From: Cypionkella sp. | Lineage (GTDB): Bacteria > Pseudomonadota > Alphaproteobacteria > Rhodobacterales > Rhodobacteraceae | Length of the DNA stretch: 64,000 nucleotides | Assembly: GCF_030652235.1 (NCBI RefSeq) | Contig: NZ_JAUSBA010000018.1 | Span: forward strand, 62,001 to 126,000 | Direction of reading: 5' to 3' | Shown: piece after piece, positions 24,942 through 34,099 of the stretch | Layout: every line of letters begins with the position of its first letter | Numbering within the stretch: position 1 is the stretch's first letter | The notes under the pieces: generated by a model | Told to the model about the DNA's origin: nothing | Databases searched by the model: none | What the model saw: only the letters and a program-made list of their open reading frames with translations | Program-made: the position numbers and the translations under genes

Positions 24942-25655
24942 TTACGGCTGACGGTAAAACAGATGCGAGCCAATAGCTGCGGTGCGGTCAAACTTACGTG
25001 ACCATGATGGGCTGACGGCGCGGGTGTGGAAATAGGTGGCCCCAGCGGTCAGCTGACGCGGGGCGCCATCCAGCATCACGCGGGCGATACGGCCAGCCAC
25101 ATCGGCAGGACCGGGTTCGGTCATCACATCTTTGTTGCCATCGCAGGAATAAGAAAACGCGCAAGACCCGCTACCACGCTGCTGCACGACGCCGCAGATG
25201 GTTTTGGGATAACGCAGGCTGTCGACGCGGTTCAGCACCACCTCGGCCACCGCGAACTGACCTTGCAGGGTTTCGCCCCGGCTTTCAAAGTAGATCGCGG
25301 TTTTCAGACATTGCCATTGCGCATCGCCCGCAGGCTGTGGTTGCGCCAGCAGCCAATCGGCGGTGTAGCTGACCAGAACCGGGTTTTGCAGTTTGGTCTT
25401 CTTGTCAGCCTTCGCAGTCTTTACGGGCTTGGGTGCTGCGGGGGTAACCACTTTCGGCCCCACCGCCATCGCCGTCAGTTTACCCTCGGGCAGCGCATCG
25501 AACGCCTTGTGTTCCGCCCCAAACAAGGACGCCATCTGCGAGCCCATCAGCAAGGTGGGGTCGTTGGAATGGCTTACCGTCACATCGGCAAAGGCCGCCC
25601 CGCTAAGGACGCAAAGCGCCGCAGCGGCACTCGTCCAGGCTTGGTGGAAGCGCAT
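24942..25655 (-). CDS. SleB-type cell wall hydrolase
   Basis: 237-residue secreted protein. A signal peptide (AAAALCVLSGAAFA) and a Lys/Pro-rich linker lead to a C-terminal Hydrolase_2 (SleB-like) domain with the catalytic Glu in LKTAIYFESRGETLQGQFAVAEVVLNRV and the family's PKTICGVVQQRG and CAFSYSCDG segments. Such enzymes cut peptidoglycan glycan strands. Single gene, with about 180 bp of AT-rich sequence upstream for its promoter. Confidence 0.9.
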   Translation of the reverse strand: MRFHQAWTSAAAALCVLSGAAFADVTVSHSNDPTLLMGSQMASLFGAEHKAFDALPEGKLTAMAVGPKVVTPAAPKPVKTAKADKKTKLQNPVLVSYTADWLLAQPQPAGDAQWQCLKTAIYFESRGETLQGQFAVAEVVLNRVDSLRYPKTICGVVQQRGSGSCAFSYSCDGNKDVMTEPGPADVAGRIARVMLDGAPRQLTAGATYFHTRAVSPSWSRKFDRTAAIGSHLFYRQP

Positions 25656-30794: not shown

Positions 30795-31268
30795 TTATTG
30801 CTCCGCTTCAGGAGAAAGCTGGTGCCACGCATAGGCGCGGCCATCGGGGAACACCGCAACAACGCGGTCGATTTCGGGGGCGATATTGGCTTGGGACAGG
30901 AAGGCGATGGCCTCCCCCTTCTCCAAGGCTGCGCCGATTTTATTGGCATCAAAGCAGCCGAACCATGTGGGGGCGATCAGCGGCACGGGCTTTTCGTAGA
31001 GTTTGTAGGTTTCGGTCAGCATGGCTTGCGACAGCGGCGTGTGGAAGCAGGCACGGAACCTCAGGGGCGAGCTGTCTGCGGTGATGCCTTCGATGCCGTC
31101 CACCAAGATCGGTTCAGGCTGGCCGGATTCGATCAGGGTGAGTTCGATTTCCGCCCCCTTCTGGAAGCTGGCCGGAGTGTAATAGGCGTATTCTTGCAGC
31201 CAATACATGGCGATGCCTGCGAGGGCGGCGGTGATCACGATGAAACCTGCGACGTATTTGCCATTCAC
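30795..31268 (-). CDS. DUF6446-like membrane-anchored protein between glyQ and glyS
   Basis: 157-residue protein with one N-terminal membrane helix ([19 protein letters not shown]) and a periplasmic domain containing two cysteines (FRACFHT, WFGCF). Sits between the two GlyRS genes, overlapping the glyQ stop as GTGA and abutting glyS, an arrangement I associate with Rhodobacterales. The GTG at 31268 gives the membrane start; the track's ATG at 31322 lies inside glyQ. Function unknown; there is no obvious link to tRNA charging. Confidence 0.82.
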
Positions 31269-32359: not shown

Positions 32360-34099
32360 ATGAGACTTCGGATGGTTGTGCTGGCGCTGCTGGTGGTGCT
32401 TGGGTTTAGCCCAATGGTGATGGCGCAACAGCAAGCTTGGGTGCAAGTTGAAGCCCAGCCCAGTTTGGCTGAGGCCGAGGGCCGCGCCCGTGACTATGCC
32501 GCCGCGTTTCCGAATGTGGCTGGCTACCAGCTTTCGTCAGGTTGGTATGCGATTGTGCTGGGGCCATATTTGGCAGAAGCCGCCGCAGGCGCGCTGGCTG
32601 ATTTGCGCAGCGCCGGCGCGATTCCGCGCGACAGCTTTGTGACGGATGGCGAAGCGCATCGCCAACAATTCTGGCCAGTGGGGGCGATTGCTGGCCAGCC
32701 GCAGGTCGACCCGGTACTGGTTGATCCGGATATTCAGACGGTGGCTCCGGTGATCGAGGTGATGCCCGCCGAGGAAACCGTGCGTGAGTCAAAAGCTTCG
32801 GAGGCGGAATTGGATGCCGAGGGCCGAATGGCGCTGCAAACCGCGATGGCATGGTATGGCTTTTACGACGGCGGCATTGACGGCGCGTTTGGCCCCGGCA
32901 CCCGCAACTCGATGGCGGCTTGGCAAGAGGCGAATGGGTTTGAAGCGACCGGGGTGCTGTCCACCAAGCAGCGCACGGCTTTGGTGGCAAATTATCAGGC
33001 GGATCAGGCGGAGTTTGGCTTTGTTTTGGTGTCGGAACCGGAGGCGGGGATCGAGATTACGCTGCCGATGGCCTTGGTGCGGTTCGACCATTACGAGCCG
33101 CCGTTCGTACATTACACTGAAAAGTCGGGCTCTGGGCTGAAGGTGATCCTGATTTCCGAACCGGGCAATCAGGACAGCCTGTCAGGACTATATGATGTTC
33201 TGCAAACCTTGGAGGTGGTGCCAGCCGAAGGGGAACGCAGCAAGTTGGAAAAAAGCTTCACCATCCATGCGGCGTCCAGCACTGTGCAAAGCTATGCGTA
33301 TGCGGAAGTGAAAGATGGCATGGTGAAGGGCTATCTGGTGGTGTGGAACCCAATCGATGCAGAGCGGATGAGCCGGATTTTGCCCGCGCTGAAAGCCAGC
33401 TTCCGGGGCGTGGGCGAAAAGGCTTTGGACCCCGGCTTGGTGCCGATGGATGCAGCGACACGGTCGGGGTTGCTGGCGGGGATGGAAGTGAAGCTGCCGA
33501 AACTGTCGCGCTCGGGGTTTTTTGTCGATGCGGCGGGGACGGTGGTGACCACGGTTGAAGCGGTGGCGCAATGTGGCCGGGTGACGATTGATCACGCGAC
33601 CGAGGCGCGGGTGGTGGCGCAGGACGCCGCAACTGGGATTGCGATTTTGCAGCCGGTCACACCATTGGCACCGCAAGCTTTTGCGCGGTTTTCCAGCGGT
33701 GTCGTGCGGTTGGGATCGGAGATCGCCGTGGCGGGATATTCTTACGAGGATAAGTTGCCTGCCCCTGTGCTGACTTTCGGCACGCTGGAGGACGAAAAGG
33801 GATTGAACGGCGAGGCGGGGTTGTCTCGGCTGGCGGCTCCGGTGATGCCCGGCGATGCGGGCGGGCCCGTTCTGGACGGCACTGGGGCGGTGCTGGGGAT
33901 GCTGCTGCCACCAGCGGTGAAGGGGGCGAAACTGCTGCCCGATGGGGTGGCTTTTGCCGCGCAAGCTGGGGTGATCGGGCAGGCTTTGACGTTGGCGGGG
34001 ATGGCTGTGAGCCCGGCCACCTCGACCACGTTGGCGACACCGGATGCTTTGAATGCGGCGGGGCTGGGGATGACGGTTCTGGTATCTTGCTGGGAATGA
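32360..34099 (+). CDS. Secreted trypsin-fold pseudoprotease with SPOR-like and PG-binding domains
   Basis: 579-residue exported protein: signal peptide (MVVLALLVVLGFSPMVMA), a SPOR-like repeat region (about residues 20-90), a peptidoglycan-binding-1 domain (MAWYGFYDGGIDGAFGPGTRNSMAAWQEANGF), a middle domain and a C-terminal trypsin-like domain. The protease core is recognisable, but the His motif is TTVEAV instead of TNAHVV and the serine motif is GDAGGP instead of GDSGGP. The catalytic Ser and His are therefore gone. It probably binds cell wall and a partner rather than cleaving. The track start at 32075 lies in glyQ; ATG 32348 is an alternative to 32360. Confidence 0.82.
   Translation: MRLRMVVLALLVVLGFSPMVMAQQQAWVQVEAQPSLAEAEGRARDYAAAFPNVAGYQLSSGWYAIVLGPYLAEAAAGALADLRSAGAIPRDSFVTDGEAHRQQFWPVGAIAGQPQVDPVLVDPDIQTVAPVIEVMPAEETVRESKASEAELDAEGRMALQTAMAWYGFYDGGIDGAFGPGTRNSMAAWQEANGFEATGVLSTKQRTALVANYQADQAEFGFVLVSEPEAGIEITLPMALVRFDHYEPPFVHYTEKSGSGLKVILISEPGNQDSLSGLYDVLQTLEVVPAEGERSKLEKSFTIHAASSTVQSYAYAEVKDGMVKGYLVVWNPIDAERMSRILPALKASFRGVGEKALDPGLVPMDAATRSGLLAGMEVKLPKLSRSGFFVDAAGTVVTTVEAVAQCGRVTIDHATEARVVAQDAATGIAILQPVTPLAPQAFARFSSGVVRLGSEIAVAGYSYEDKLPAPVLTFGTLEDEKGLNGEAGLSRLAAPVMPGDAGGPVLDGTGAVLGMLLPPAVKGAKLLPDGVAFAAQAGVIGQALTLAGMAVSPATSTTLATPDALNAAGLGMTVLVSCWE

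Follow-up and report, generated by a model that had tools for sequence, protein, structure and literature searches.

A conserved predicted pseudoprotease of the cell envelope in Rhodobacteraceae, with a trypsin-like domain that has lost its catalytic triad

Introduction

Inactive members of serine protease families are in themselves nothing new: in a survey published in 2008, 42 of 966 prokaryotic serine proteases were inactive homologues (PMC2605481). The closest functional precedent for the protein described here is MamO of Magnetospirillum, which is HtrA-like and catalytically dead, binds metal and promotes MamE-dependent proteolysis (PMC4794232). The two have in common an alphaproteobacterial trypsin-like domain that has lost catalysis and has gained (in our protein, by prediction) non-catalytic roles. 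However, in MamO the catalytic His and Asp are still present and Ser is replaced by Thr (PMC4794232), whereas our protein has lost all three; MamO also carries a C-terminal TauE transporter domain and belongs to the magnetosome island, whereas our protein (no TauE domain in a Pfam scan) has SPOR, peptidoglycan-binding (PGB) and PsbP-like domains attached and is near-universal in its family.

The best PDB sequence match (7.4e-5) is the periplasmic protease domain of MarP (Rv3671c; PDB 3k6z/3lt3). MarP is an active enzyme, and our protein fails NCBIfam NF033740 (30.3 against a cut-off of 250 bits); the entry 3lt3 is an engineered S343A mutant of MarP that reads GDAGGP, as our protein does. Among the HtrA/Deg proteases (DegS, DegP), DegS (3lgi) gives the best fold match, but our protein lacks the catalytic triad and shows no PDZ domain in the Pfam scan. 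A SPOR domain also occurs in the septal proteins FtsN, DamX and RlpA, but here it stands at the N-terminus, joined to PGB and a pseudoprotease.

The gene lies in a stretch of 64,000 nucleotides of Cypionkella sp. (contig NZ_JAUSBA010000018.1), hereafter the window, whose numbering is used throughout for this locus. Cypionkella belongs to the Rhodobacteraceae, a large group of aquatic bacteria. Judged by sequence, the protein is the representative of a new, well-conserved family of bacterial pseudoproteases of a known type such as MamO. A literature search found no paper describing it, and no passage attributable to this gene was seen in the main text of a Tn-seq study of R. sphaeroides (PMC5513736). 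The vesicle SPOR protein Dshi_0924 of Dinoroseobacter (PMC7901474) was considered as an orthologue, but its identity with this protein was not established.

Gene and domain architecture

The open reading frame at 32360-34099 (+) is intact, begins with MRLRMVV and ends with a TGA stop at 34097-34099. Its conservation in 257 of 298 family genomes and the purifying selection acting on every domain indicate a real gene and not a chance reading frame; the overlapping frames are mechanical ORFs, as is usual in GC-rich DNA. The following features were assigned:

32360..34099, + strand: whole gene, 579 aa, predicted exported PG-binding pseudoprotease (ORF, Pfam, orthologues)
32360..32425, + strand: Sec signal peptide, residues 1-22, with a putative cleavage site between SPMVMA and QQQ (sequence; model helix 2-15)
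32429..32644, + strand: SPOR domain, residues 24-95 (Pfam PF05036)
32807..32989, + strand: PG_binding_1 domain, residues 150-210 (Pfam PF01471)
32996..33409, + strand: PsbP/Mog1-like domain, residues 213-350, without a Pfam model (AlphaFold2, Foldseek)
33500..33994, + strand: trypsin/HtrA-fold pseudoprotease domain, residues 381-545 (Pfam PF13365; AlphaFold2 model and Foldseek matches to DegS and MarP)
33557..33559, + strand: former catalytic His site, E400 (alignment of 215 sequences)
33572..33574, + strand: C405, invariant in 214/214 and also present in active relatives; putative disulphide partner C577 (alignment)
33635..33637, + strand: former catalytic Asp site, G426 (alignment of 214 orthologues)
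33827..33829, + strand: R490, clade-specific fixed change (R in 202/214; Q in 28/28 active relatives)
33854..33859, + strand: D499 and the former catalytic Ser site, A500 (alignment)
34088..34093, + strand: C577-W578 at the C-terminus, the Cys invariant in 214/214 (alignment)

The fold, the SPOR-like part and the peptidoglycan-binding part, which the first-pass annotation had described as retained, are all recovered above the Pfam cut-offs. Trypsin_2 (PF13365; residues 385-514, 47.4 bits against 27.6) and PG_binding_1 (PF01471; residues 154-208, 43.1 bits against 23) are kept in 30/30 orthologues, while SPOR (PF05036; residues 26-85) is marginal, with 23.1 bits against a cut-off of 21, and was matched in 22 of the 30 at E<=0.01, the other 8 falling below threshold. 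Because the Trypsin_2 score exceeds its cut-off, annotation as a trypsin-like peptidase is very likely.

The PsbP/Mog1-like region (about 140 residues between PGB and the trypsin domain) was modelled by AlphaFold2 with a pLDDT of 94.9, using 53 orthologues as input. It gave no significant match to PDB sequences; by Foldseek, it matched a chain of a spinach supercomplex (1.8e-6), cyanobacterial PsbP (CyanoP, 2.3e-6) and Mog1 (9.3e-5), and similarity to the PsbP/Mog1 group (E 1.8e-6 to 2e-4, TM 0.57-0.69 by query length) is a likeness of fold only. The full-length model had a mean pLDDT of 85.6 and a pTM of 0.43, which leaves the relative placement of the domains unsure; its last domain matched DegS (3lgi, E 5.7e-10) and MarP.

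Loss of the catalytic triad

That Ser and His are missing had been noticed in the first-pass annotation, and the alignment agrees: A500 (in GDAGGP) occupies the Ser position and E400 (in TTVEAV) the His position. The loss goes further than had been stated, since the catalytic Asp is replaced by G426 (in QDAATGIAIL), and thus the whole triad is gone. Substitutions were counted in 215 distinct sequences that matched the full profile well, or in the 214 clade orthologues that remain after removal of the protein of one genome (G559, see below). None of the triad residues is retained in 206 of the 214 and a single one in 8, and no orthologue retains two or three. The Asp site is Gly in 202 of the 214; the His site, with the intact G559 protein included (n=215), reads E 122, D 42, A 20, Q 14 and others, with H in 2.

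The Ala itself had been put forward as a residue whose conservation should be checked. It prevails (154 of 214 clade orthologues) and is not invariant: across the 215 sequences, position 500 reads A 154, V 25, T 12, S 5, with R and others making up the remainder. This variation points to a former catalytic site that is non-catalytic and yet holds no fixed ligand pocket. An alternative nucleophile or a misplaced active site was rejected, no conserved candidate being found in the cleft, and a fixed metal or ligand site formed by E400 and D499 is unlikely, as position 400 is not constant (A, Q, S and G occur, among others).

Constraint on the trypsin domain

Among close orthologues, NG86 dN/dS was about 0.08-0.17 for the trypsin domain and 0.04-0.31 for the SPOR, PGB and PsbP-like domains, the trypsin domain lying mostly below the linkers. 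Mean conservation in 200 full-length orthologues was highest in PGB (0.70), followed by the trypsin and SPOR domains (0.62 each) and the PsbP-like domain (0.60). Since its dN/dS is in the same range as that of the other domains, the trypsin domain is not a decaying remnant. A pseudogene or frameshift was likewise ruled out by the intact reading frame in relatives and a whole-protein dN/dS of about 0.1-0.2.

Residues specific to the dead clade were sought by comparison with 28 active relatives that have the same Cys pair. Common to both sets are G386, G393, T397, C405, G459, G474, G501-P503, P527 and C577; released in the dead clade are the triad and its neighbours, whereas G426, R490, D499, P432, T409 and P380 are newly fixed, which argues for a new constraint. 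D499, for example, is D in 210 of 214 orthologues but N in 27 of the 28 active relatives. A salt bridge between R490 and D499 was considered, but in a covariation test the exceptions failed to pair, and there is no support beyond co-fixation. C405 and C577 are the sole cysteines beyond the N-terminal signal region (30 orthologues checked), and a predicted disulphide between them probably locks the dead trypsin domain. The conservation of the glycines, the GDxGGP motif and the Cys pair, while the triad positions vary, fits a fold that was kept around an active site that was set free.

Distribution and genomic context

In a survey of 298 Rhodobacteraceae genomes (almost one per genus; 263 of high quality), an orthologue was present in 257 genomes and in 230 of the high-quality ones. 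Named records show it in Cypionkella, Pseudorhodobacter, Tabrizicola, Gemmobacter, Cereibacter, Litoreibacter, Actibacterium and many others. At 71 loci with enough flanking sequence, the gene is divergent from glyQ in 67, and no conserved operon partner and no cell wall gene in the operon were found. Neighbours therefore gave no lead to function, the gene standing alone and divergent from glyQ. Loss of the whole trypsin domain is rare among the orthologues examined; one glyQ-divergent gene (L203:6246-7886 (-), contig 12 of genome G421) lacks it, its product comprising two SPOR-like segments, PGB and the PsbP-like domain. Elsewhere in the window, a SleB-like cell wall hydrolase is encoded at 24942-25655 (-), about 7 kb from the gene, with no evidence of a link, and a small ORF between glyS and glyQ (~155 aa; ~30797-31265 (-)) has a membrane helix at its N-terminus.

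Active relatives and the origin of the dead clade

In other families of the class, the nearest relatives align mostly over residues 387-584, and some carry Sel1 repeats or PGB in front; all those examined have His-Asp-Ser and both cysteines, except one partial sequence (L138) without the Ser region. Two alphaproteobacterial proteins, L197 and L320, share the domain order and the Cys pair of the window protein, L197 with a SPOR-like segment as well, but both have an intact His-Asp-Ser triad. L197:4911-6809 (+) is from the same family (genome G559, contig 166; a partial copy occurs in the congener G691) and encodes SPOR-like, PGB, PsbP-like and trypsin domains. Orthologues with an intact triad had been named as what would speak against a pseudoenzyme: none occurs in the 214-member clade, and the single protein of the same architecture that has one, that of G559, is encoded away from glyQ. 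As it falls outside the dead clade, we read it as marking the active ancestor and not as refuting the pseudoenzyme.

In trypsin-domain trees, a single branch separates the dead orthologues from all other sequences (SH-aLRT 100; 100/100 in a more careful tree), so that a single loss suffices, and catalysis was probably lost once in the Rhodobacteraceae dead clade. PGB-PsbP-trypsin proteins without SPOR occur in other alphaproteobacterial families: L320 and L357-L361 read His-Asp-Ser, L324 retains His and Ser (the alignment is uncertain at its Asp column), and three are dead (L321:1451-2809 (+), LDS; L322:2172-5480 (-), SGS; L323:1606-3036 (+), GGG). A tree in which all dead sequences form a single clade was rejected, though only just (p-AU 0.0495; 0% of bootstrap trees), and long branches are involved; a second, independent loss in these related proteins is likely. 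L357-L361 and L324 do not have the C405/C577 pair; they have cysteines beside the catalytic His (TNCH), and L357-L361 also near the Asp (DRC).

Proposed function and alternatives

The first-pass annotation had suggested a binding or regulatory pseudoenzyme at the envelope, and the sequence data argue strongly for such a protein, as the triad is lost in all 214 clade orthologues while the fold and the PG-binding domains persist, with a trypsin domain no less constrained than the rest. We favor, with a probability of roughly 0.6, a periplasmic, peptidoglycan-tethered pseudoprotease that acts as a non-catalytic adaptor or regulator. Its anatomy, conservation and phylogeny were tested here, while its export and localisation, disulphide, peptidoglycan binding, partner binding and regulatory role would follow from what is known of the families. 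The signal peptide would export the protein, and SPOR and PG_binding_1 would hold it on peptidoglycan, SPOR perhaps on septal, denuded glycan, although the marginal SPOR score and the 8 of 30 orthologues below threshold speak against taking septal targeting for granted. Binding surfaces for other proteins may then be offered by the PsbP/Mog1-like domain and by the dead trypsin domain with its putative disulphide lock; the partner recruited or controlled would most likely be a factor in wall remodelling or in quality control of the envelope.

The trypsin domain might instead be a structural cap or stability module that binds nothing, with the SPOR, PGB and PsbP-like domains doing the work as a wall tether. 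The variable triad positions would suit such a module, and the glyQ-adjacent gene of G421 suggests that the front part can stand alone; however, the trypsin domain is as constrained as the others, has its own clade-specific fixed residues and is rarely lost as a whole, and we consider a mere cap unlikely. It is likewise unlikely that the trypsin domain controls an active envelope protease in the same cell, whether by forming hetero-oligomers with it or by binding substrates. MamO sets a precedent by promoting MamE-dependent proteolysis (PMC4794232), and three or more HtrA-like proteins of the genome have intact triads (L031-L033), but the gene has no genomic linkage to any protease and no PDZ domain was found in its product. 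Persistence of enzymatic activity through a non-classical active site, e.g., E400 with D499, is highly improbable: acidic residues are frequent at these positions (Glu or Asp in 164/215 at the His site, D499 in 210/214), but the remaining His sites carry A, Q, S, G and others, the Ser site is mostly A or V, and the cleft has no conserved alternative nucleophile.

A broader scenario, which we put forward tentatively and hold to be possible rather than probable, extends the adaptor or regulator reading back in time: in a single event at the base of most Rhodobacteraceae, an ancestral active SPOR-PGB-PsbP-trypsin envelope protease would have turned into a peptidoglycan-docked pseudoprotease hub that defines the family, an obligatory binding protein in control of wall remodelling or of quality control at the envelope. 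Related PGB-PsbP-trypsin proteins of other alphaproteobacterial families would have undergone such a conversion independently.

The protein is an unusually clear bacterial pseudoprotease, being single-copy and near-universal in its family and not an isolated dead paralogue. The family includes genetic models (Cereibacter/Rhodobacter sphaeroides, Phaeobacter, Dinoroseobacter), and the survival of active relatives with the same Cys pair and architecture allows loss of catalysis and new constraint to be compared side by side. The PsbP/Mog1-like domain is common to many alphaproteobacterial PG-binding proteins and could be defined as a new family.
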